From contig JAGBVR010000002.1 of assembly GCA_017630215.1 (NCBI GenBank), forward strand, positions 89,615 through 153,614: a stretch of 64,000 bases of DNA. Reading direction: 5' to 3'. This document shows positions 756 through 62,773 of the stretch, piece after piece; within the stretch, counting starts at the first letter, position 1; the number at the start of each line of letters is the position of its first letter. Position numbers and translations under genes: made by a program. Source of the stretch: Bacteroidales bacterium. Its GTDB lineage: Bacteria; Bacteroidota; Bacteroidia; Bacteroidales; UBA932. A model generated the notes under the pieces. It did no database searches and was not told the DNA's origin. It worked only from the letters and a program-made list of their open reading frames with translations.

Positions 756-3572
756 ATGCGTAAGTTTCTGACAATTGTATTTCTACTGCTTACAGTCCTG
801 GGTGCAAAAGCACAATCCAGGGCTGTAAGCGGCAGAATAATTGATGCCGGATCAGGCGATCCGGTCATCGGAGCTGTTGTCAGAATCGGAACCGACTACC
901 TGTGGGCGAGCACTGATATTGAAGGAGAATTCACTTTCGATAATGTCGAGTCTGGAAAGCACGAACTTGAGGCTTCCTGCCTGGGCTACGTGAGCGTCCT
1001 TATGGAAATCGATGTCAATAAAGACATTGAAAATCTTGAAATCAAGCTGCACGAAAGTTCACTTGCATTGGACGAAGTGGTAGTGACGGCGCAGAAGGCC
1101 AAGGATGGCCTCGGAACCACTCACAGCCTCGGTCGCGATGCGCTCAACCATCTGCAGATGTCCAATATGACCGACGTCGCAGCCCTTCTTCCGGGAGGAA
1201 AGACCGTCAATCCGGACCTTACCACCGAAAATTCATTCTCCATCCGTGAGGGAGGCTCCAACAGCGGAAACTCTGCCTTCGGAACGGCAGTGGAAGTGGA
1301 TGGAGTCAGACTCGGAAACAATGCGTCATTCGGAGAAATGGGCGGAGTCGACACCAGAAGTGTGGCCGTGGAAAACATCGAATCCATCGAGGTCATCACC
1401 GGAGTACCTTCTGCAGAATATGGTGACCTGGGCAGCGGAATGGTCAGAATCAATACCCGCAAGGGCCGTACTCCGACCAATGTAACATTCTCTGTCAATC
1501 CGCGTACATACCAGGCTTCCGTTTCAAAAGGTATTGACCTTCAAGAAAATAACGGAGTATTGAACCTCAGTGCGGAATGGGCGAGAGCCATAAAGAAGCT
1601 CATCTCGCCTTACGAATCCTACACCAGGACCGCCATCACCCTCGGCTACAGCAACACCTTCGCCAAAGGACTGCGCTTCGAGGCCGGATTCACCGGAAAC
1701 ATAGGAGGAATGAACACGAAGGACGACCCGGATGCATTCACCGGAGAGTTCAAGAAAGAAAGGGACAATGCCTTCAGAGGTAATACATCCCTGACCTGGC
1801 AGCTGAACAAGCCGGGCATCACGAATCTGAAATTCGATGCCTCGGTCAATTTCAATGACAACCTCTATCATTACCACAAATACGAATCCTACGCTTCGAA
1901 CCAGCCCGCCGTACACGCAGAACAGGAAGGCTATTTCATCGCCGGCAGACTTCCTCTGACATTCTTCTCGGACCAGATCATAGACTCCAAGGAACTGGAT
2001 CTGGCTGCTTCTGTGAAATACAATTGGCACAAGCGCTGGGATGACGTAAAGAGCCAGCTCAAGGCCGGAGTACAATGGAAGGCGAACGGCAATGTAGGAG
2101 AAGGAGAGTATTATCTGGATCCGTCTCTCGCCACCAACGGATATAGGCCAAGGCCATATACCGACTATCCGTTCATGCACAATCTCTCGGTCTATGCCGA
2201 AGAACACCTGAATCTTCCGGTAGCAGGCACCAAACTCGAAGTTACAGCCGGACTCCGACTGGAAAATGTATTCATCCAAGGCTCGCTCTACAACAAGAAA
2301 GCCACCCTCTCTCCTCGTTTCAATCTCAAATGGCAGCTTGCAGAAGGCCTTGCTGTCAGGGGAGGATGGGGAATCACGGAGAAACTGCCTTCATACTACA
2401 TCCTATATCCTAAACAGGAATACCGCGACATCCAGACATTCGGCTTCCCTCACGGAGACCAGACCAGCTATATCTATTATACCCAGCCATATACGGTAAC
2501 ATACAACCCCGATCTTCGCTGGCAGCGCAACAGCAGCTCCGAGCTGGGACTGGAAGCTTTATTCTTCGGTACAAAGATCTCATTGACAGGATTTTACAAT
2601 ATCACCAAGGGCCCATACAATTTCATCGATGTATATGAACCATATTCATACAACATACTTCAGCGTCCGGAAGGATTCACCATTCCGGCAGACCCTCAGA
2701 TTAAGGTAGACAGCCAGACAGGAATGATGTATGTAAGAGGTGGTGACGATGATTATTGGACTCCTATGGACATAAAGGTCACTGACCGCACCTTCGCTAA
2801 ATCGACCAAGCAGAATAACGGAGCCGATGTAAAAAGGGCCGGAGCGGAACTTGTGATAGACTTCCCTGAGATAAAGCCTGTCAGGACATCATTCCGACTG
2901 GATGCTTCATATACTTTCACCAAGTATCTGAATGACCAGCTTGCGGCATATTATCAGAACGGCTGGTCACACACCTCGCTTGCGAACCGTTCATACCAAT
3001 ATGTCGGAATCTATGCCAATGGAACAGGCGGCAATTCTGTGGCCAACGGAAAGATAACTCACAATCTGGACGCCAATCTCACCGCCATCACACATATTCC
3101 TCAGGCACGTCTGATCATCACCTGCAGACTGGAAATGAGCCTTCTCAGACGAAGCAGGAACCTGTCTATGTACAATGGCAGCCAATACGCTTTCACAGTA
3201 AGCGAGGCCGACAAGACCCCGACCGGGGAAGACATATATAAAGGAGATTTATATACCGCCATCCGTCCTGTATCATATATGGATCTGGACGGTAATGTGT
3301 ACCCTTTCACAGATGCCCAGGCGGCAGACCCTGCATTTGCGAACCTGATACTCAAATCGGCCAACGCCTATACCTTCGCTCAGGATGGATATGGGGCCTA
3401 TATGTCTGCCAATCTGAGCATTACAAAGGAGATAGGAGATCATGTATCCCTGTCTTTCTTTGCCAATAACTTTACCAATTCAAGGCCATATGTAGTGTCG
3501 ATGGCGACTGGAGTGGGGGCGATCTTCACCCCGGCCTTCTACTACGGACTGACCTGCCGATTGAAATTTTGA
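756..3572 (+). CDS. TonB-dependent outer membrane receptor with carboxypeptidase-like regulatory domain
   Basis: The 938-residue protein should be an outer-membrane beta-barrel importer energised by TonB. Residues 1-19 are a signal peptide ending AKAQ. Residues about 20-105 form a CarboxypepD_reg-like domain (GRIIDAGSGDPVIGAVV). A TonB-box-like stretch DEVVVTA at about 108 is followed by a plug domain with the VENIESIEVITGVPSAEYGDLGSG signature region. The remainder is barrel and ends in LKF with C-terminal Phe. It lacks the usual SusC/RagA pairing, since no SusD follows. The gene lies between a dipeptidase (3 bp upstream) and DUF4876/DUF6850 genes. The substrate is not deducible; a peptide-derived or metal ligand are options. 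Family is certain, substrate unknown. Confidence 0.93.
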   Translation: MRKFLTIVFLLLTVLGAKAQSRAVSGRIIDAGSGDPVIGAVVRIGTDYLWASTDIEGEFTFDNVESGKHELEASCLGYVSVLMEIDVNKDIENLEIKLHESSLALDEVVVTAQKAKDGLGTTHSLGRDALNHLQMSNMTDVAALLPGGKTVNPDLTTENSFSIREGGSNSGNSAFGTAVEVDGVRLGNNASFGEMGGVDTRSVAVENIESIEVITGVPSAEYGDLGSGMVRINTRKGRTPTNVTFSVNPRTYQASVSKGIDLQENNGVLNLSAEWARAIKKLISPYESYTRTAITLGYSNTFAKGLRFEAGFTGNIGGMNTKDDPDAFTGEFKKERDNAFRGNTSLTWQLNKPGITNLKFDASVNFNDNLYHYHKYESYASNQPAVHAEQEGYFIAGRLPLTFFSDQIIDSKELDLAASVKYNWHKRWDDVKSQLKAGVQWKANGNVGEGEYYLDPSLATNGYRPRPYTDYPFMHNLSVYAEEHLNLPVAGTKLEVTAGLRLENVFIQGSLYNKKATLSPRFNLKWQLAEGLAVRGGWGITEKLPSYYILYPKQEYRDIQTFGFPHGDQTSYIYYTQPYTVTYNPDLRWQRNSSSELGLEALFFGTKISLTGFYNITKGPYNFIDVYEPYSYNILQRPEGFTIPADPQIKVDSQTGMMYVRGGDDDYWTPMDIKVTDRTFAKSTKQNNGADVKRAGAELVIDFPEIKPVRTSFRLDASYTFTKYLNDQLAAYYQNGWSHTSLANRSYQYVGIYANGTGGNSVANGKITHNLDANLTAITHIPQARLIITCRLEMSLLRRSRNLSMYNGSQYAFTVSEADKTPTGEDIYKGDLYTAIRPVSYMDLDGNVYPFTDAQAADPAFANLILKSANAYTFAQDGYGAYMSANLSITKEIGDHVSLSFFANNFTNSRPYVVSMATGVGAIFTPAFYYGLTCRLKF

Positions 3573-27817: not shown

Positions 27818-29578
27818 TTACCTGTCGAACGGATCTCCGTCCGGATCCTGACTCACTACCCAACGGAAAGCATTGACAAACAGAAGATTCTGGGTCGCGT
27901 CGATATATTCTTCATCGCCGTGGCCCATATTCAGATATATCATCCTGTAATTGCGGTTTGTCCACACTACAGGCCAATCTCCTGAATATACGATATCCTT
28001 TATTCCCAACGGATAATTCTTTGGAGACAATGACACAAGTACCTGAATATCAGGATTATTCCTTGGAGACGGAGTCCACTGATACCACTCGCTTGCCGGA
28101 GCGATAAAATCCTTCGGAAGATTCTTTGTCACCTGATGATCCTGAGTGTCAAGTTCAAGAAGCACCGGCTGAGGAGGCCAGTTATTGCAGAGGAACACAC
28201 CCCCGCCGAGGAACTCGAGAAGCCAAGGCCAATTGGTGTTGCGGTCGTTGTAGGCGGCGGCGTGGAATCCTACCCAGCCGCCTCCGTTTTTCATATACTG
28301 CTCGAAAGCCTTCCTTTCTGCCGGAGCCCAAGGTGTCACATTCGGCATTATCACCACATCATATTCCTTGAGCTTTTCATACGGATATCCAGAGAAATCC
28401 GTAGTAACTTCGAGGCTATATCCTTCGCCGTGAGTAAGTTTCTTGAAAAAGTCGATTGTCTGATGAGCGAACTGCGCATGAGCCTCCTCCACATTCTCTG
28501 AATAATAGAGCAATGCCCTGAATCTCACTCGCTTACCTGCGTAATTTGCAGAGCGTGTCGCTGCATATTTTTCTCCAAGAATAGCCTTGGCGACAGTCTT
28601 GCGAAGGTCTCCGTCCTTATTGTCACCATCGTAATCCCAATACATTGCTCCCTTGAGTCCCTTCTCCAATGCATATTCGCATTTGATTCTGAGAGAACGA
28701 GGATTTTCATATCCGAGCTGAAGGACGCCCTCCTCATCTTCAAGATATGGTACCATTGCCTTTTCATCCCACTTTTCCACCACGCCGATATGACGGTGAA
28801 GATCCTTATAATCATTGAAGCTTGAGATTTTCAGGCCACCACGACCATAGAAAGGCATCCCTAAAACCAATTTCTCTGCCGGCATCCCCGCAGCGATGTG
28901 AGCCTTGACCGCCTTGTCGGAAGTAATGCTTCCGCTATTCTCAGACTCGTACAGAGCACTGTGATGTTTAGGAGCGTTGGCCATATCGTAAGCCATAATG
29001 TTCACGAAATCCATATAAGGCTCAATTGCCTTGAAGTCAATATATTCCGCAGATGCCGCACTGGCCAGTGTCAATAGTTTCTCCTGCCCGAGAGCCTTAC
29101 GCAGTTCCTTCATCAGCTTGGTGAAATTGTCCGTATCCTTAGGTGAAGATGAGATGCCGGCTGCAGAACTGGTAGGATATTCCCAGTCAATATCGATTCC
29201 GTCCAGGCCGAATTCCTCGACTACTCTGAGGCAATCCTTGGCAAAGGCTTTGCGACGTTTCCCCTCCATAGCCATTTCGCTGAAACGGCCGCTTCCCCAG
29301 CCGCCGACGGAAAGCATCACCTTCAGGTCCGGATTCGTCTTTTTAAGAGCTACCATCTGATGAAGTCTTTCTGGATTATCGACCCTGACTCCGTCAAAGC
29401 TATCCGTCACATGAGCGAAAGCATAATTAAGATGGGTCATGCAGAAAGGATCTGGAATGACCCTGCTCCACGAAGTTACATAAGCGACTACCACACGGTC
29501 AGATTCTGCAACAGCCGCAGCTGAAGCACAAATTGCACTGATGATTGCCAGAATGGCTGAAAGGAGGATTCTTTTCAT
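27818..29578 (-). CDS. GH18 glycosidase fused to a ThuA-like domain
   Basis: The 586-residue secreted protein starts at 29578 (MKRILLSAILAIISAICASA). The longer frame from 29635 has no signal peptide at its own start. Residues about 27-340 are a GH18 barrel with KVMLSVGGWGSGRFS (about 87-100) and the catalytic DGIDIDWE (126-133, Glu133 as acid). Family members cleave chitin or N-glycan chitobiose. Residues about 355-586 form a ThuA-like flavodoxin-fold domain (RFRALLYYSENVEEAHAQFAHQTIDFF, YDVVIMPNVTPW, GGWVGFHAAAYN, PVVWTNRNYRMIYLNMGHG). The two domains are well preserved in one frame. The gene stands alone. Confidence 0.9.
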   Translation of the reverse strand: MKRILLSAILAIISAICASAAAVAESDRVVVAYVTSWSRVIPDPFCMTHLNYAFAHVTDSFDGVRVDNPERLHQMVALKKTNPDLKVMLSVGGWGSGRFSEMAMEGKRRKAFAKDCLRVVEEFGLDGIDIDWEYPTSSAAGISSSPKDTDNFTKLMKELRKALGQEKLLTLASAASAEYIDFKAIEPYMDFVNIMAYDMANAPKHHSALYESENSGSITSDKAVKAHIAAGMPAEKLVLGMPFYGRGGLKISSFNDYKDLHRHIGVVEKWDEKAMVPYLEDEEGVLQLGYENPRSLRIKCEYALEKGLKGAMYWDYDGDNKDGDLRKTVAKAILGEKYAATRSANYAGKRVRFRALLYYSENVEEAHAQFAHQTIDFFKKLTHGEGYSLEVTTDFSGYPYEKLKEYDVVIMPNVTPWAPAERKAFEQYMKNGGGWVGFHAAAYNDRNTNWPWLLEFLGGGVFLCNNWPPQPVLLELDTQDHQVTKNLPKDFIAPASEWYQWTPSPRNNPDIQVLVSLSPKNYPLGIKDIVYSGDWPVVWTNRNYRMIYLNMGHGDEEYIDATQNLLFVNAFRWVVSQDPDGDPFDR

Positions 29579-29682
29579 AGTATCGGTTTTAACTCCGATA
29601 AAGATACGGATTTTTGCGGACATTGGCAAAACCACGATTCAGCAACCACCTGATTCACTGAAGCAGTTCCACTCAAAGCACC

Positions 29683-30822: not shown

Positions 30823-31227
30823 CTACACTTTCATCATTCCGGTCTGAGAAAATGAGAAGGCGAGGACTCCCAGGCACATCGCACTGAAAATCAGGTTTTT
30901 CCAAGCAAGGACGAACTGCACGACAGAAGAGCCTTCCGAAAGCCGAGGCAATAAGAAATACACCGCCACGAAAAGAACGGAACAAAGTACAATATCAATA
31001 ATCAGCGTCTTGACAGCATGACGACGGTAACGCTTACGAAGCGCCTCACGGATAAGGGCCAATATCCTCATATTTTCCTGTATCTTTTCCTCATCGACAC
31101 CGTTTAAGGATGCAGGAACCGGCAACAGGTCAATCTGCCGGACAAGGTCGGCCATAAATGCATCGTCCTTCGGCACAGGAATCTTATTGTCCTGAAAGAA
31201 TTTCCTTATATCTTTTTCTGTTTTCAT
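30823..31227 (-). CDS. small membrane protein paired with an ECF sigma factor
   Basis: The 134-residue protein has a cytoplasmic N-terminal part with KDIRKFFQDNKIPVPKDDAFMADLVRQI, in the style of DUF5056-like anti-sigma partners. Two membrane helices follow (about 72-93 and 104-124). The start overlaps the sigma factor stop by 4 bp. It is likely the anti-sigma or sensing partner by position; no zinc-binding anti-sigma motif is present, so the role is inference. Confidence 0.65.
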   Translation of the reverse strand: MKTEKDIRKFFQDNKIPVPKDDAFMADLVRQIDLLPVPASLNGVDEEKIQENMRILALIREALRKRYRRHAVKTLIIDIVLCSVLFVAVYFLLPRLSEGSSVVQFVLAWKNLIFSAMCLGVLAFSFSQTGMMKV

Positions 31228-31712
31228 AATCTTTCCAGATATTGTTTCAAATGTCCCCTCGCCCTCGAAAGATGCGACCTTATTGTCCCTGACGGCATCC
31301 CTGTAATCACCTCTATCTCCTTGACCGACTTTTCCTCCATATAAAAGAGCAGTATCACGGCCTGTTCCTGCCGGGTCAGGCTCCCGATGGCAGCGTATAG
31401 CTGCTGATATTCGTATTTTTTGTCGGCCGTTGAACCTTCATCCTTGACCTTTCTAACCTCTTGCAGATCAATGGATTCATTGTCAGGATAATTTTGCAGC
31501 TGATCGTACCAACAATTGTATGCGATCCTGAAAAGCCAGGTCGAGAAACGCGATCGGCCCTGGAAACGTTCGAAAGAAAGATATGCCTTAAGCAGCGCTT
31601 CCTGGGCAATATCGTCAGCACGGAAACCGTCCCCTCCACACAGACCGCGCAGGAATCTTCTCAAAGACTCCTGCTCGGCTGCTACCAGCTCTATGAACTG
31701 CTGCTTAGTCAT
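31224..31712 (-). CDS. ECF-type RNA polymerase sigma factor
   Basis: The 162-residue sigma-70 family factor shows region 2 (GFRADDIAQEALLKAYLSFERFQGRSRFSTWLFRIAYNCWYD) and region 4 (LTRQEQAVILLFYMEEKSVKEIEVITGMPSGTIRSHLSRARGHL). It has the usual ECF length. It is coupled to the following membrane protein gene by a 4-bp overlap; a DUF6249-like gene precedes it by 23 bp in the same direction. Confidence 0.93.
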   Translation of the reverse strand: MTKQQFIELVAAEQESLRRFLRGLCGGDGFRADDIAQEALLKAYLSFERFQGRSRFSTWLFRIAYNCWYDQLQNYPDNESIDLQEVRKVKDEGSTADKKYEYQQLYAAIGSLTRQEQAVILLFYMEEKSVKEIEVITGMPSGTIRSHLSRARGHLKQYLERL

Positions 31713-32975: not shown

Positions 32976-33040
32976 TAAACAATCTGTATTTTTCGTATAC
33001 CGGAACCAATTGAGCGTTATTGCATTTCGCTCACTTAATA

Positions 33041-33077
33041 CCATCAGAGGCGACCCGTAATGAGTCGCCTCTGATGG
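33041..33077. terminator. bidirectional terminator between convergent genes
   Basis: CCATCAGAGGCGAC (33041-33054) pairs perfectly with its complement at 33064-33077 around ccgtaatga, 14 bp of stem. It separates the flavodoxin-family gene from the convergent SusD fusion gene. The GAGGCGA core also forms the terminator at 37233. Confidence 0.88.
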
Positions 33078-33098
33078 TTATATCATCTCGCAACCTGA

Positions 33099-35498
33099 CT
33101 AGTAACCAGGATTCTGCATCAAATCAGGATTCATATTTATTTCACGCTGAGGTATTGGATAAAGGGTATAATGGGATGGAAGATCCTGTCCATAGTAAAC
33201 ACCACCTTTATATGTCCAGTTATAACCATGTATCCACTTTCCAAATCGAATAAGATCGGTGCGGCGATGACCTTCCCACATCAGCTCGCGAGAACGCTCT
33301 GCAAGGATGTATTCCTCAGTAACCTCAGTTGGAAGTTCTGCCCCAGCACGTGCAGCTAATTCTCTGAGTTTAGCCAATGCTTCCTGCTGCAGACCTAGTC
33401 TATAGCAAGCCTCGGCATAAATCAAGTATATTTCACCCAAACGGATCAATGGGAAGTCTATGTCACTGAAATTTTTATCCCAGCCATATGAGACTCCGTC
33501 ATGAGAATTATTGTTGAACTTAATAAACGACCATCCATTCAAGAAGGTATTGAGATTATATTCCATAGATTCCTTACGACCTTTTATATAAAAATACCCG
33601 GCACGCTCATCTGTATAAACATACTCACCAGTCTTATAGTTCGGTTTTTTCACATCAGGAAACCATCTCCTGACATAATCATAAGGAACACGATTACCAG
33701 CCCAGCCGCTATTCAATCCTACAATATCACCCGGATTATCGTCTCCGGACAGTGAGGAAGATACTATAAAAGTAGTTCCACCATACGACATTGCCTTTGA
33801 ATCATATGGCGCAGCAAACAGTATCTCACCTCTTGCGTCAGAATTTTCACCATTGTCAGCACGGAAAAGTTCCGCATGAGTCGGAGCAAGAGTATAACCA
33901 AGTGAGAATATTTTATCACAAGCCTCTCTTGCCTCCTGCCATCTCGGTCTGCCAGTATACACTTCGGCATTTATATATACACGAGCCAGAAGACCTAGAA
34001 CTGTACCCTTATCCGCTCGTGGATAATTAGCTCGGGCAGCAGGAATTTCGCTATTGTCCGAAGAAAGATCTTCAAGTTCTTGAACTATATATTCAAACAA
34101 TTCCTTTCGTGGCAACTGACTTGGATTAAATTCAGATATTGAAGAAAATTCTGTTGTAAACGGGAACATACCGAATACATCCATTGCTACCCAATAGAAA
34201 TAAGCGCGAAGGAAACGAGCTTCAGCACGATACTGCATAACAGTTTTCTTAACAAATCCTGAACATCCTCTTTCTTCCAGCTTGTCTTCCGTAGTGTTAC
34301 GCAAGAAATCATTAACGGATGTGATTACATTAAGACATTGAAGATAAACAGCATAGACAGGGTCAATCAAACCGCATGCGCTGAAATCTGCTTGATTAAG
34401 GAAATTAATATAAGCGTCGCCCCATGCACACTTTAGAGCATCAGCAGGAAGCTCCTGGATAGTCCAGAAAGCACGGACAAATTCCGCAGATCCTGGGTCA
34501 AAGAACTGATTACTCCAGTTCATACTCACAATATTTTCATAAATGCCGGTAAGTACCTCCTCGTATCCCATAGAGTATTTTCCATAACGATCATCTACAT
34601 ATGGATCTTTGTCTTCAAGAGAGACTGGTGGCATAACCAGAATCGATGAACGCTTAACCTCATTAGCAACGTTTGTGGATATTTTATATAGATCTTCCTG
34701 AGCATCAGCTATATATACTGTGAAACCGTTTGTAAACTTAGTTGGCGGGAGAGCAATCATAAATTCTGTTACTTTATGCTCATTAAGCTGAACTCCTTCG
34801 CCACAATATAACTTTACAGAAGAGTTTCCACCTTCTAATGAAATCTGAGGACGTTGATTGTCTGAAAACACAGTAACTGTAGCTGATCCAGCCAGTGGTT
34901 CTTCTAAATTTCCCTTGACTTCAATGGACTTCACAATATGCGTTCCTGTCAACTGAAGTTTGAGTACTCCCAAAACATTCTTGAACTTCAGGTTAAAATC
35001 CGACTCGTTATCAGTTACTGCAACCATAGGAAAGCTACCGTTGCTGAACGAATTCGGAGTATATACCTGAGTACTTGGAATCACAGTATTACTGACTCTA
35101 TAAACACCATCTGCATCCAAATAAGATCCGGATAATGATAAGTTCCTGGAATATGGATAATAGGCCACATTGCAAGGAATCTCTATTCCCGCGTTAAAAT
35201 CTCCCGTCCCTTGAGCATCATTTCCCACATATTCCAAAGTGCCATTGCTCTTACCTGCAGATGCAGATGAAACGGAATACTCATCTGCAATTGTACTACC
35301 TTGAAATACCGCAACGCGATCTCCCGCTGACCACAAAACTGCTCTGTTTGAGGCCAATGCAGTCTTTGTAGGAGCATCAAATTCCTCAAAAGATGTAGTG
35401 AACAGATCTTTTGACACTATGATTTCCTCTGATTCCTGCTTATAACAACTGCTCAACCCAATGGTAACTATTGCCAATAAAATGACTGATTTTTTCAT
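33099..35498 (-). CDS. fusion lipoprotein: fimbrillin-like module plus SusD/RagB domain
   Basis: The 799-residue protein has lipobox GLSSC (Cys18). Residues about 20-300 are the same fimbrillin-like module as at 9595-11475 (AYYPYSRN, SFSNGSFPMVAV, LKFKNVLGVLKLQLTGT, EFMIALPPTKFTNGFTVYI, EVKRSSILVMPP). Residues about 310-799 are a SusD/RagB glycan-binding protein missing the usual first 40-50 residues: GYEEVLTGIYENIVS, then TPR helices with AEARFLRAYFYWVAMDVFGMFPF, KGTVLGLLARVYINA and the C-terminal IRLGEIYLIYAEACYRLG, LAERSRELMWEGHRRTDLIRFGKW. No SusC receptor is in the window. It has its own perfect promoter, divergent from the next gene. Codon use is AT-richer than flanking genes. Confidence 0.9.
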   Translation of the reverse strand: MKKSVILLAIVTIGLSSCYKQESEEIIVSKDLFTTSFEEFDAPTKTALASNRAVLWSAGDRVAVFQGSTIADEYSVSSASAGKSNGTLEYVGNDAQGTGDFNAGIEIPCNVAYYPYSRNLSLSGSYLDADGVYRVSNTVIPSTQVYTPNSFSNGSFPMVAVTDNESDFNLKFKNVLGVLKLQLTGTHIVKSIEVKGNLEEPLAGSATVTVFSDNQRPQISLEGGNSSVKLYCGEGVQLNEHKVTEFMIALPPTKFTNGFTVYIADAQEDLYKISTNVANEVKRSSILVMPPVSLEDKDPYVDDRYGKYSMGYEEVLTGIYENIVSMNWSNQFFDPGSAEFVRAFWTIQELPADALKCAWGDAYINFLNQADFSACGLIDPVYAVYLQCLNVITSVNDFLRNTTEDKLEERGCSGFVKKTVMQYRAEARFLRAYFYWVAMDVFGMFPFTTEFSSISEFNPSQLPRKELFEYIVQELEDLSSDNSEIPAARANYPRADKGTVLGLLARVYINAEVYTGRPRWQEAREACDKIFSLGYTLAPTHAELFRADNGENSDARGEILFAAPYDSKAMSYGGTTFIVSSSLSGDDNPGDIVGLNSGWAGNRVPYDYVRRWFPDVKKPNYKTGEYVYTDERAGYFYIKGRKESMEYNLNTFLNGWSFIKFNNNSHDGVSYGWDKNFSDIDFPLIRLGEIYLIYAEACYRLGLQQEALAKLRELAARAGAELPTEVTEEYILAERSRELMWEGHRRTDLIRFGKWIHGYNWTYKGGVYYGQDLPSHYTLYPIPQREINMNPDLMQNPGY

Positions 35499-35526
35499 AA
35501 ATAACGATGTCTTGTTCTTAGGTTGA

Positions 35527-35557
35527 CAAAATTAAACCATTCCCGATCGACTTCAAA
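35527..35557 (-). promoter_or_regulatory. promoter of the SusD fusion gene
   Basis: On the minus strand: TTTG (35557-35554), 19-bp spacer, TAATTTTG (35534-35527), 28 bp before the ATG at 35498. Perfect consensus, back to back with the promoter at 35581. Confidence 0.85.
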
Positions 35558-35580
35558 ACATTTGTATGACTTTCTTATTA

Positions 35581-35611
35581 TTTGAAAACGGGAAAATGAA
35601 TATTATATTTG
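35581..35611 (+). promoter_or_regulatory. promoter of the SusE/F-like fusion gene
   Basis: TTTG (35581-35584), 19-bp spacer, TATATTTG (35604-35611), 32 bp before the ATG at 35644. Perfect consensus. Its position fixes the start at 35644 rather than the earlier in-frame ATG at 35566, which lies upstream of the promoter. Confidence 0.85.
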
Positions 35612-35643
35612 TATGTCCATGTAGAAAATTCAGTGAACACATT

Positions 35644-37191
35644 ATGAAAAATACTATTCTCTTATTAATAACAACAGCTGCAGTGCTGGCCGGTTGCCAG
35701 AAAGCGGAATATGACAGTACATCCGGATCTGAAATTTTCACGGCTTCAATAGATGAATCTGGCACTCAGACCAGAACTACTATGACCTATGACAGACAAG
35801 TGGTCTGGTCATCTGAAGATCAGCTTGCAGTTTTTCAAGGCAAAACAGTAGCAAATCAATATAAATTAAAAGAAAGCTATGCAGGATCCAGCAACGCTTC
35901 ATTTAAACTAGTGTCCGAAAACACTTCAGCAAATAAAGACAATGACATTCTACGCAACATAGCTTTATATCCATATTCAGAAGATATTGTTCTTTCTAAG
36001 GGTATGGATAACAGCAAGGAAGATGTATACAAGATATCAAATGTGGTTCTTCCTGAATCTCAAATATATTCGCCCGATAGCTTCGGCAACGGTACTTTCC
36101 CAATGGTTGCTGTAACCAGAAGCTTAGGTGACCATAATCTCAAGTTCAAGAATGTCATGGGTGCCATCCAGTTTGAGTTCGTGGGAAATCAATTAGTAAA
36201 ATCTATAAGCATAAAGGGAAATAACGGAGAACGTCTTGCGGGTGAAGCAACAATAACTGCACACGGAAATAATCTTATGCCGACAATCCAAATGGGATCA
36301 GAGGCTTTTACAGAAGTTACTCTTGATTGCGATTGGGGTGTTCAGCTTACGAGGAGCGAGCCAACAAAATTTATAATTGCACTACCGCCTGTTAAATTTA
36401 CACAAGGTTTCACAGTAACCTTGAAATATCAAAATGGTAATGAGTATTCGATTTCTACCGACAAAGAGAATGAAATACTCCGTTCCACTATTTGCACTAT
36501 GCCCGTACAGTCAGCAGAAGGTGATAGTCAGGTACCTCATTCATCCCTCCATATCATCGGCTCATACAGTTACTGGGATCACAGATATAGTCAATTTATC
36601 TGCGATTTCAAAGGAGATAACGACATCTATTCCGGCCTTATTGACTTTGGAGAGGATCATAGATCTAATGAATTTAAAATTACAGGAAAAAGCTGGGGCG
36701 AGGATGAGTATTCCATGAGCAAACCTTATGCACCCGAAACCAAAACCATATCTCTGGTTGAAGGAGGTGGCGATAATATTAATGTATATCAGGAAAAGCG
36801 ATATTACCAGTTTATTCTTGATCGATCCGAATGCACTTTGACCTCCAACATTTCATTCGACCAACTTGGAATAATAGGAGATTTCAACTATTGGAGTGAA
36901 GATGTGGTGATGGATTTCAATCCATTTACACAAAAATTCTATACAGATCTTGAGCTTGTGGCTGATGTCTACTTTAAATTACGTTTTGATAGCGATTGGG
37001 CACTGCAGCTGGGATCACATAACGATCTTCTCGAATTTAACGGAGAGGATATCCACGCACCGGCTGGTAAGTATAGAATCTATGTGGACTTGAACAATCC
37101 TGAAAAAATGTCATTTGTACTCGATGCTAAGGCCTATGGTACCGAGGAGAACTATGGTCATTTTGCTTCAAGTTATTCTTACTCCGATTAA
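35644..37191 (+). CDS. fusion lipoprotein: fimbrillin-like module plus SusE/F-like C-terminus
   Basis: The 515-residue protein has lipobox VLAGC (Cys18). Residues about 20-285 are the shared fimbrillin-like module (ALYPYSED, SFGNGTFPMVAV, LKFKNVMGAIQFEFVG, KFIIALPPVKFTQGFTVTL, EILRSTICTMP). The C-terminal half has two successive Ig-like segments, the first opening LHIIGSYSYWDHRYS and the second LGIIGDFNYWSEDVVMDFNP, with KLRFDSDWALQLGS in the second. These resemble the starch-binding domains of SusE/SusF. It is probably a surface glycan-binding lipoprotein partnering the divergent SusD fusion. AT-rich codon use like its partner. Confidence 0.8.
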   Translation: MKNTILLLITTAAVLAGCQKAEYDSTSGSEIFTASIDESGTQTRTTMTYDRQVVWSSEDQLAVFQGKTVANQYKLKESYAGSSNASFKLVSENTSANKDNDILRNIALYPYSEDIVLSKGMDNSKEDVYKISNVVLPESQIYSPDSFGNGTFPMVAVTRSLGDHNLKFKNVMGAIQFEFVGNQLVKSISIKGNNGERLAGEATITAHGNNLMPTIQMGSEAFTEVTLDCDWGVQLTRSEPTKFIIALPPVKFTQGFTVTLKYQNGNEYSISTDKENEILRSTICTMPVQSAEGDSQVPHSSLHIIGSYSYWDHRYSQFICDFKGDNDIYSGLIDFGEDHRSNEFKITGKSWGEDEYSMSKPYAPETKTISLVEGGGDNINVYQEKRYYQFILDRSECTLTSNISFDQLGIIGDFNYWSEDVVMDFNPFTQKFYTDLELVADVYFKLRFDSDWALQLGSHNDLLEFNGEDIHAPAGKYRIYVDLNNPEKMSFVLDAKAYGTEENYGHFASSYSYSD

Positions 37192-37232
37192 TAGTAAGAA
37201 GCATCATTCAATCATTACTAAGATATAACTGA

Positions 37233-37262
37233 AAGAGGCGATCCGTTTTCGGATCGCCTCTT
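37233..37262. terminator. bidirectional terminator with 13-bp perfect stem
   Basis: AAGAGGCGATCCG (37233-37245), TTTT loop, CGGATCGCCTCTT (37250-37262), followed by ctattgt. It separates the SusE/F-like fusion gene from the convergent EF-G paralog. Confidence 0.92.
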
Positions 37263-60844: not shown

Positions 60845-61486
60845 CTATCTGGAATATGGCTTCTTAAAAGAAAGTCTGCCACCTTTACGCACCCTCAATT
60901 TTATCCGATCCGTATTGAAAAGAGGATGATATAACTGACTGATCTTTAATATGACATTTTTACCATCTGAATACCATCTGCCTGCAACCCTTTCCTGATG
61001 CCATAATAGTTCATATGTATAATCTTCAAGCAGTGACAGTTCGACTTCTCCTGCCTCAAAGCAATATTCACCTACCAGATCATTATGAAACCTATCTAAA
61101 TATAATGCCGGCCCTGTCTCTGAACCATATACCTCAAAGTGTCCCCATTGAAGCCTGTTTTCGCCGATGATTTCCAGTTCCTTCACCACATACTGACCCC
61201 ATTGGTCATATCCTTGCAACGGATCTTGTTCACGTTTGTCAAAATTCAAGAAAATTTTATTTTCCTTGACTTCCCATTTACCATAATATCCGGACATAAC
61301 CTCGTTAAAAATCACAAACGTGCTATCACCACGTAAATGCAATTCCAGTCTGGTCTTGAATCCAGGCATCTCATTATATTTATAGGTTCCGACCAGATCA
61401 TTCCGGTCATACCCTCGTTCGCTTCCCAGTGCAGTCAGGCCGCACAACAGGAAGACAATTGTCATCAAATGTCTTATCGTTTTCAT
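60845..61486 (-). CDS. secreted protein of unknown function, paralog of 62839-63324
   Basis: The 213-residue protein starts at 61486 (MKTIRHLMTIVFLLCG, signal peptide ending ALG). The first 45 residues including SERGYDRNDLVGTYKYN are nearly identical to the protein at 62839-63324. The rest shares a lipocalin-like strand pattern: LELHLRGDSTFVIFN, YYGKWEVKENKIFLNFDKRE, YVVKELEIIGENRLQWG. A second, similar strand set follows (DLVGEYCFEAGEVELSLLEDYTYELLW). No family is recognised. It is the last gene after the Rhs tip and its immunity candidate, so an immunity or accessory role is possible. Confidence 0.7.
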   Translation of the reverse strand: MKTIRHLMTIVFLLCGLTALGSERGYDRNDLVGTYKYNEMPGFKTRLELHLRGDSTFVIFNEVMSGYYGKWEVKENKIFLNFDKREQDPLQGYDQWGQYVVKELEIIGENRLQWGHFEVYGSETGPALYLDRFHNDLVGEYCFEAGEVELSLLEDYTYELLWHQERVAGRWYSDGKNVILKISQLYHPLFNTDRIKLRVRKGGRLSFKKPYSR

Positions 61487-61515
61487 TATTGTATTCTGTT
61501 TTAAAGTGTGATTTA
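61386..61515. repeat. duplicated gene start segment (copy at 63224-63353)
   Basis: About 130 bp covering the promoter-proximal region, start codon and first 33 codons are nearly identical to 63224-63353, including the non-coding cattattgtattctgtttta stretch. Divergence begins abruptly on both sides. Confidence 0.9.
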
Positions 61516-61529
61516 CCTTTAAACTCTTT

Positions 61530-62117
61530 TTACTGGCTATTTCCGCAACATTTCGCGGTATTGCCAATTTTTGTTTTTGCTATATACAGATTGAGTTGCT
61601 TATCGCAGATTGGTAAACGCAAAATCTTAAAATTGCAGTTTTCTTCTATGAGAGATCTATCATATCTTACAAAACCAGAAAGCAGATCTTTTTTCTGGGC
61701 ATCGTTCAAGTAAGGAGTTCCTATGAAATCTTCTATCCATAATCTACAAGAGTCATCAAAACTAACTCCCTTATGTTGAGTTATATATGTTCCTCCTTCA
61801 AATAATACTACAAAGGTGTAAGTATAAGCAGAATCTTCGTTATCCCAATTCAGGGTTTCTAGAAAATTTACCAGCAGAGACTTTCTCCAGGGATTGATCC
61901 ACCAACACCAAATGCATTCCACATTAGTTAAAAGTGAAGGATCTAAATCCTTGTCCTGAGAATCTTCTACGATTTTCTTCCGCTGCATATTGCTTACATA
62001 CGGTTGTGAAATAAAATCATCCATCCACATTCTGAATGCTTGATAATGATTTTCTCCAGGATAACACCCTAAATAGGTGTTATCCTTAAACTCAGTTATA
62101 AAAGAATATGTCCTCAT
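61530..62117 (-). CDS. candidate immunity protein with two tandem copies of one domain
   Basis: The 195-residue cytosolic protein contains two similar halves. Half 1 (1-90): TYSFITEFKDNTYLGCY, AFRMWMDDFISQPYVSNMQRKKIV, NVECIWCWWINPWRKSLLVNFLET. Half 2 (95-178): YTYTFVVLFEGGTYITQHKG, CRLWIEDFIGTPYLNDAQKKDLL, CNFKILRLPICDKQLNLYIAKT. The YxFxxxFxGGTYIxQ...W pattern is one I associate with small orphan immunity proteins. The start overlaps the Rhs-tip stop by 4 bp, the normal toxin-immunity arrangement. AT-rich compared with neighbours. Assignment is by pattern and context. Confidence 0.65.
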   Translation of the reverse strand: MRTYSFITEFKDNTYLGCYPGENHYQAFRMWMDDFISQPYVSNMQRKKIVEDSQDKDLDPSLLTNVECIWCWWINPWRKSLLVNFLETLNWDNEDSAYTYTFVVLFEGGTYITQHKGVSFDDSCRLWIEDFIGTPYLNDAQKKDLLSGFVRYDRSLIEENCNFKILRLPICDKQLNLYIAKTKIGNTAKCCGNSQ

Positions 62118-62773
62118 TTTTTATTTCCTTTTCCGCCTCCTTGACTATGATTTTCTCCAGTGAAGTCCATTTTTCTTTTCCAATGATCCAGTTGCCTTTT
62201 TAAGACATTTTCAAGTTTTCTATCTTCTGGAGTTTTCTGATTTTTACTCTTGATTTCCTGGTATCTCAATCTAGTATCTTCGTACTTTTCTTTAGCAGCT
62301 AATTTTGCTTTAAGGTTAGCGTGTTGACTATTTTTATTACCTGACGAAACATTAGTCTTTCCTCTCTCGTACCCATCAAGCTGGTTCTTTGATGAATTCA
62401 TCATCATCAACCTGCCGCCAGCCGCGGTCACTACTCCCTTTACTAACTCTTCAGCACCAATTGCTGCTACCGGCCCACCGACAAATACGAGAGTACCACC
62501 ACTTACAGAAACAGATGTCGCTCCAGCTGCAAGAGCAGCACCTCCAAAAGCTGCTTCTGCTGCCCCTACTTTAGTAAGAAAGCCACCGAATGCGGCGCTT
62601 TCTAATGTCAAAGAACTGGTTCCGCTGCCTGTGCTCCTTCTGTACACGAACGGTCCCCTATATACAAGTCCCTCACCGCCTCCGTTCAGTGCACTGACCT
62701 TAGTGCCGTCTGCAAGATACGAATAATTGGGGTGGTCTTGCTTGTGTTGAGCGGGAAAACAGCAAAAACTCGC
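62114..62773 (-). CDS. orphan Rhs C-terminal tip with toxin domain, N-terminally truncated
   Basis: The frame is open from 62773 to 62114, with no good ATG; GTG at 62647 is possible. The first part, NYSYLADGTKVSALNGGGEG and LVYRGPFVYRR, is the end of a Rhs/YD-repeat core as in Bacteroidetes Rhs proteins. A hydrophobic Gly/Ala segment follows (AALAAGATSVSVSGGTLVFVGGPVAAIGAEELV). The C-terminal 70 residues are charged and helical, ending QLDHWKRKMDFTGENHSQGGGKGNKK. This GENHS ending resembles polymorphic-toxin tips, possibly of the Ntox34 kind. The Rhs core itself is missing, so this is a silent cassette or remnant. Confidence 0.72.
   Translation of the reverse strand, partial: ASFCCFPAQHKQDHPNYSYLADGTKVSALNGGGEGLVYRGPFVYRRSTGSGTSSLTLESAAFGGFLTKVGAAEAAFGGAALAAGATSVSVSGGTLVFVGGPVAAIGAEELVKGVVTAAGGRLMMMNSSKNQLDGYERGKTNVSSGNKNSQHANLKAKLAAKEKYEDTRLRYQEIKSKNQKTPEDRKLENVLKRQLDHWKRKMDFTGENHSQGGGKGNKK

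Follow-up and report, generated by a model that had tools for sequence, protein, structure and literature searches.

Module-swapped SusD and SusE lipoproteins encoded back to back, without an adjacent SusC, on an inserted segment of a Bacteroidales genome

According to a section of PMC7782687, the segment of about 15 residues that follows the lipid anchor of a levan SusD provides the pivot for lid opening and an attachment to SusC. In an excerpt of PMC2954216, the conserved TPR and C-terminal helices of SusD were guessed to face SusC. The BACON, DUF1735, and SusE/F N-terminal domains have been proposed to act as membrane-bound spacers (excerpt of PMC11216935). They combine a lipoprotein signal and an N-terminal module with many different C-termini, and that excerpt describes no SusD on such a spacer. 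In the open-licence literature, neither a fusion of SusD with a fimbrillin or a module of this sort nor an orphan SusD without SusC was found described.

The canonical state in relatives was taken from 68 SusD loci obtained by pattern search of named genomes, some of which share one genome. All 63 loci that leave space for it have SusC directly upstream of the nearest canonical susD (62 called by script and L181 by inspection and BLAST, with 79% identity to a SusC), and the remaining five loci start at a contig edge. A homologue of the SusE-type protein described below, P0002, was encoded directly downstream of susD in 46 of the 68 loci, including all of L151–L160, and some of the 22 loci without it end at the locus boundary. 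Further along the L091 locus come a BACON-GH13 protein, another SusC/SusD, a CBM48-bearing pullulanase-type GH13, and one more GH13; given this neighborhood, the ancestral role looks like starch use.

We analyzed a 64-kb stretch of DNA, hereafter the window, in which a SusD and a SusE-type protein occur in a different form (Table 1). The SusC-SusD-SusE starch loci found within the genus (G024, G032, G259, G270, and G380) encode SusDs with 57–60% identity and SusE binding parts with 43–53% identity to the corresponding parts of P0001 and P0002, and susD and susE are neighbors in these loci as they are in the window. However, the same-genus genes are co-directional after susC and have ordinary N-termini, whereas P0001 and P0002 are divergent, fused to a module, and without susC. 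P0001 is homologous to the starch-system SusD of B. thetaiotaomicron (3ck7) over two pieces that run from P0001 residue 333 to the C-terminus; unlike that SusD, P0001 has no adjacent SusC and carries a 290-residue module in place of the signal and the first post-anchor residues.

Table 1. Features of the inserted segment and of a related gene, in window coordinates
Feature	Position	Strand	Description
Extra stretch relative to G007	32977..37232	.	4,256 bases; no large ORFs besides the two fusion genes
Inverted repeat	33040..33078	.	perfect, 15 nt, terminator-like; after the P0001 stop
P0001	33099..35498	-	module-SusD fusion lipoprotein; 799 aa
SusD part of P0001	33102..34628	-	residues 291-799
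N-terminal module of P0001	34629..35498	-	residues 1-290; lipobox LSSC
Promoter match for P0001	35527..35557	-	TTTG-N19-TANNTTTG; Bacteroidales-type consensus
Promoter match for P0002	35581..35611	+	TTTG-N19-TANNTTTG; Bacteroidales-type consensus
P0002	35644..37191	+	module-SusE fusion lipoprotein; 515 aa
N-terminal module of P0002	35644..36507	+	residues 1-288; lipobox LAGC
SusE-type binding part of P0002	36508..37188	+	homology to SusE-type proteins
P0003	9595..11475	-	module + Big_2 + FISUMP-type domains; paralogue outside the cassette

The reading frame of P0001 is unbroken from the lipoprotein signal to the stop. Its SusD half matched Pfam SusD_RagB above the cut-off (E 3e-35) and also SusD-like_3 (E 1.2e-06), and the NCBIfam starch SusD model matched with an E-value of 5.6e-92 and 308.7 bits, below its strict cut-off of 725 bits. 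The PDB sequence matches were 3jys (E 6.9e-83) and SusD 3ck7 (E 7.9e-57). The SusD part showed 55–60% identity to nine canonical SusDs (alignment A4). A sequence-only reading of the window had assigned the SusD/RagB region to residues from about 310 onward; the assignment was confirmed, with homology to the nearest canonical SusDs beginning earlier, at residue 291–292. In these nine proteins, the homology begins at their own residues 28–32, approximately six residues past the lipobox cysteine. The swap thus replaced the signal, the lipobox cysteine, and about six residues, consistent with the same reading's claim that a module had taken the place of the usual SusD start, and the next 10 or so residues still align with several changes. 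Consequently, 290 residues now lie between the lipid anchor and the SusD body, which are no longer joined by a short segment; by inference from the levan SusD, that segment may have had the pivot role. A frameshift or assembly join near residue 300, which that reading had named as a possible objection, was looked for: the frame was open, and GC3 was 0.328 before and 0.326 after the junction, with no break in composition. Its statement that no SusC lies next door also held, as no SusC above the family cut-off was found in the 64-kb window; a TonB-receptor-like ORF at 756–3572 scored 83.8 bits against the SusC-family cut-off of 368.

The divergent neighbor P0002 is the same kind of fusion, in which the module is joined to the binding part of SusE. 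Its start was set at the lipoprotein signal (35644) and not at the longer ORF start (35566), and the position of the plus-strand promoter match inside the longer ORF supports this choice. The binding part showed 51–53% identity over about 205 residues to residues of about 157–362 of the three closest SusE-type proteins, which are encoded immediately 3′ of canonical susD in G259, G270, and G380. The C-terminal half of P0002 had no Pfam domain and no PDB sequence match of its own. The SusE N-domain PF14292 was present in all three SusE homologues scanned (G032, G259, and G270) and was not found in P0002, where the module stands in its place. Judging from these alignments, two neighbors of a starch locus, susD and susE, received the same new N-terminus and are here arranged back to back. 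The sequence-only reading had treated P0001 alone; it recognized the FISUMP relative of the module but overlooked that P0002 is the SusE counterpart of this fusion and that both genes belong to one inserted cassette.

The modules of P0001 and P0002 were 42% identical (E 2e-70), and that of P0001 was 40% identical to the module of the FISUMP protein P0003 (E 6e-59), as had been noticed from shared motifs. By tree path, the nearest module to that of P0001 was that of P0002 and vice versa, although the fork itself had no support. The own genome contained 21 module matches, whose partners include FISUMP/Big_2, BspA-type LRR, CotH, CBM26, and peptidase M64, and the module was detected in 49 of 121 genomes of the genus, the own genome included (E<=1e-20). 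We tallied Pfam families in 54 nonredundant ORFs that extend 100 residues or more past the module (P0001–P0003 included; from fetched loci, many of the ORFs ending inside the locus). Among the families listed (25 of 37), Lcl_C occurred in 12, LRR_5 in 9, Fib_succ_major in 9, CotH in 3, Metallophos in 2, and SusD in 1, which is P0001; phosphoesterase and nuclease domains are also among the C-termini of module-bearing single lipoproteins. A lipoprotein signal, an N-terminal position, and varied C-termini were all found for the module in the 54 proteins, and its C18 hardly varied in the two module alignments, which had 37 and 54 rows. The BACON, DUF1735, and SusE/F N-domain Pfam families were not found in P0001–P0003.

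The module had also been called fimbrillin-like, a label that the profile comparisons weakly support. Mfa_like_1 (PF13149) was not listed for P0001, P0002, or P0003 at E<=1, and at E<=0.1 it matched five of the 37 module rows, with a best E-value of 3.8e-05. Comparison of the module with 12 own-genome Mfa_like_1 proteins by hhalign gave a probability of 91.6 and an E-value of 8e-07 over 177 columns with 15% identity, suggesting a remote relation. Apart from this weak profile similarity, P0001–P0003 differ from Mfa_like_1 and type V fimbrillins in having no detectable family match, a large C-terminal domain, and, for the cassette, no pilus genes. Because the module commonly forms the N-terminus of single lipoproteins whose C-termini are diverse, a membrane-proximal spacer fits better than a pilus stalk, and the earlier proposal of a fimbrillin-type stalk in the pilus sense was not upheld. 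Eight Mfa_like_1 genes occur within about 9 kb elsewhere in the genome (G000:C2:63800-72915; L005-L011 and L013) and possibly form a fimbrillin cluster.

The two fusion genes lie in a stretch that is extra relative to G007, where the flanks match as far as window base 32976 on the left and from 37233 on the right, with 20 bases between them. The neighboring EF-G was most similar to those of two relatives, G021 (94%) and G007 (93%), and G021 is also without the gene pair; the FMN-reductase-like gene is inverted there. Five further fetched loci had no match to P0001 or P0002, and the left-flank gene was also not found in them. A gain here is simpler than repeated loss, and we infer this direction. 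GC3 was 0.328 for P0001 and 0.353 for P0002, compared with a mean of 0.524 (sd 0.073) for 40 hand-picked other ORFs of the window and 0.44–0.55 for six canonical susD genes, and both halves of both fusion genes were at 0.33–0.38. Since 4 of the 40 comparison ORFs also fell at 0.315–0.392, low GC3 by itself is weak evidence of transfer.

P0001 and P0002 start 145 bases apart, and the gap contains two perfect, back-to-back TTTG-N19-TANNTTTG sites, which match the Bacteroidales-type promoter consensus. The pattern was observed 4 times in the 64 kb, against 0.34 expected. Several further observations were made in the window. The hairpins at 33046-33072 (end of P0001) and 37234-37261 (end of EF-G) have the common core AGAGGCGAYCCG, and the latter begins at the right edge of the insertion. 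Three ORFs at 60845-62647 have a GC3 of 0.315–0.39 and are possibly another foreign stretch. At 30823-31712, a small gene with a membrane-like segment (read by eye) comes after an ECF-type sigma factor-like gene, and homologues of both are found at G007 in the same order. The ORF at 27818-29635 joins a GH18 domain to a ThuA domain.

No module fused to SusD was found at any of the 68 nearest canonical loci. The sequence-only reading had named separate genes in all relatives as a refutation; separate genes are what these loci show, which marks the fusion as lineage-specific within the sampled genomes but does not undo it. One module-like match at L210 is a separate ORF and not a SusD. P0001 was searched against overlapping sets of 60 relatives, 400 genus genomes, 393 order genomes, and 399 genus genomes (centered on G021), and 263 of the 400 genus genomes had a match at E<=1e-30, with two candidates scored per genome. 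Among the matches listed for these sets, none outside the own genome spanned both halves of P0001. Contig scans gave 13 genome-contig and two viral-contig pattern matches, none of which was confirmed as a relative of P0001, and none of the 10 plasmid records matching P0001 covered 80% of it; the five listed all match the SusD part. Matches of P0002 in the 400 genus genomes likewise concerned one half or the other only, among those listed. The P0002 matches that overran the module in G382, G396, G093, and G250 were considered as candidate fusions and rejected, as they showed no SusE similarity above chance. Among what was sampled, the module-SusD fusion is therefore specific to this lineage.

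We compared P0001 with 60 full-length canonical SusDs and found that it keeps 129 of the 149 positions (87%) conserved in >=95% of them, where the leave-one-out minimum among the canonical proteins was 92.8%; with 52 closer SusDs, the picture was the same (134 of 156 kept). The losses comprised 5 of 9 conserved positions at residues 291–333 and 8 of 19 at 361–416, giving 13 of 28 in these two regions and 7 of 121 elsewhere (Fisher p 8e-7, the regions having been chosen after seeing the data). In contrast, 27 of 27 positions at 681–760 and 40 of 43 at 417–530 were kept. By our own mapping, the latter two stretches may hold the C-terminal and TPR helices, and their retention would also fit continued docking on SusC. 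D334, R342, W359, Y572, and W599 of P0001 align to D73, R81, W98, Y296, and W320 of SusD, which are presumably starch-site residues, and all five are kept; SusD W96 corresponds to C357, a difference from SusD shared by 42 of the 43 canonical relatives compared, and the counterpart of N101 was ambiguous. In the SusD tree, P0001 grouped with nine canonical sequences (SH-aLRT 99). Its end branch was 0.91, compared with 0.02–0.30 in the nine sisters. Because another lone SusD sequence, L096, has an end branch of 0.90, the length may reflect only unsampled close relatives.

The own genome is a MAG that is 57.8% complete in 50 contigs, and a partner SusC may be unassembled. It contained 13 SusD_RagB matches, a count that SusDs without this Pfam domain would escape, and 12 SusCs above the cut-off. 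By coordinates, each of the 12 SusCs adjoins one of the other 12 SusDs, and P0001 is left unpaired. Nine more SusC-family matches scored below the cut-off, including a partial one on contig C24 (129 bits) for which no SusD was listed. Contig C48 carries a SusC/SusD pair and many GH13 matches. On this contig, the GH13 amylase L227:2938-6288 has a module-like N-terminus of about 390 residues, where its homologues have a shorter one; from residue 392, it showed 46–47% identity to the G007 and G021 amylases and 47.5% to the BACON-bearing G032 amylase. The preceding gene encodes a module-like N-terminus with a CBM26-type domain. The module match on the C48 proteins was weaker, with E-values of 1e-17 and of 8e-12 in two pieces (single-protein searches). 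At L226:8225-15197 and L227 (G000:C48), pullulanase/GH13 genes directly follow a MurA-like gene (named by eye) without the SusC/SusD pair that they follow in relatives such as G032, and module-like CBM and GH13 proteins are encoded downstream.

The explanation to which we give somewhat better than even credence is that an inserted, probably horizontally acquired cassette encodes a SusD and a SusE that the module swap freed from SusC and that would serve as free surface starch binders. The N-termini of both proteins were replaced by one promiscuous lipoprotein module, a change that would have detached them from SusC. P0001 and P0002 are predicted to be lipidated at the N-terminal cysteine and probably displayed on the surface, where the module of about 270 residues may act as a spacer, as proposed for BACON, DUF1735, and the SusE/F N-domain, and lift the binding part off the membrane. 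With the short pivot segment no longer tying it to the anchor, SusD could bind starch freely, and, beside the carbohydrate-binding modules of the SusE part of P0002, it would concentrate alpha-glucan for use in trans by the amylases and SusC/SusD pair of C48. In agreement with the sequence-only reading, the anatomy of P0001 suits a glycan-holding protein better than a transporter lid. The module-like amylase and CBM26 protein of C48 suggest a wider pattern beside P0001 and P0002, which we count in favor of this explanation, together with the SusC neighbors of canonical susD, the pairing of the other 12 SusDs in the own genome, the separation of anchor and SusD body, the clustered losses beside a kept putative starch site, the missing SusE N-domain of P0002, the promoter matches, and the insertion with its low GC3. 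The occurrence of the module beyond starch proteins, the roughly 10 post-anchor residues that still align, the many kept SusD positions, and the limited completeness of the genome count against it. The C48 proteins also permit a stronger version, which we consider unlikely: SusD, SusE, the CBM26 protein, and a surface amylase of this lineage would all ride on fimbrillin-related modules, and those of P0001 and P0002 would pair, or polymerize by strand exchange, into a starch scaffold that needs no dedicated SusC.

The most serious competitor, unlikely but deserving weight, is that P0001 still lids a SusC encoded elsewhere, on C48 or in an unassembled part, the module being tolerated between anchor and lid; a remote SusC was also the second option of the sequence-only reading. 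The retention of most positions conserved among SusC-paired relatives, the alignable part of the post-anchor segment, the SusC/SusD pair and GH13 genes of C48 in a genome of limited completeness, and the unaccompanied C24 match speak for continued lidding. Against it, every SusC above the cut-off already adjoins a SusD, the module parts the anchor from the SusD body, the neighboring SusE fusion bears the same change, and the conserved losses cluster at 291–333 and 361–416. We regard it as improbable that P0001 and P0002 belong to a type V (fimbrillin) pilus, as tip or accessory subunits that present starch-binding heads. The distant relation of the module to Mfa_like_1 and the eight-gene Mfa_like_1 cluster would suit such a role, but Pfam Mfa_like_1 was not found in P0001–P0003, no pilin-like gene is among the cassette ORFs, and the single lipoproteins that bear the module have C-termini as different as LRR, CotH, phosphoesterase, and nuclease, among others. 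Pilins use their C-terminal end for strand exchange, and a large C-terminal domain would occupy it. Similarly low is the probability that the cassette is an inactive remnant whose long SusD branch records lost function: the branch is indeed long relative to the nine sisters and the fusion is confined to one sampled genome, but both frames, of 2.4 and 1.5 kb, are intact, P0001 retains the putative starch-site positions along with 129 of the 149 conserved ones, and each gene has a promoter match. An artefact of assembly or binning is very improbable, even with an incomplete 50-contig assembly and a fusion seen in one genome only, since the same swap, in frame and at a domain boundary, occurs in two adjacent genes, the halves of both genes share a GC3 of 0.33–0.38 against a mean of 0.52 for the 40 other window ORFs, and the G007 flanks match on both sides. 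An assembly chimera was rejected because of the equal GC3 of both halves, the parallel swap in P0002, and the conserved flanks.

The double domain swap is real and so far belongs to one lineage, in which a promiscuous N-terminal module captured two partner genes of one complex. Work on SusD has treated it as a lid on SusC. P0001 is a natural SusD that stands apart from both its lipid anchor and any SusC gene; with part of the conserved SusD set lost and the putative starch site kept, it would separate binding from the lid function. A section of PMC7782687 asks outright why the SusD lid evolved at all, and P0001, together with its canonical relatives, would make this question testable with one protein.
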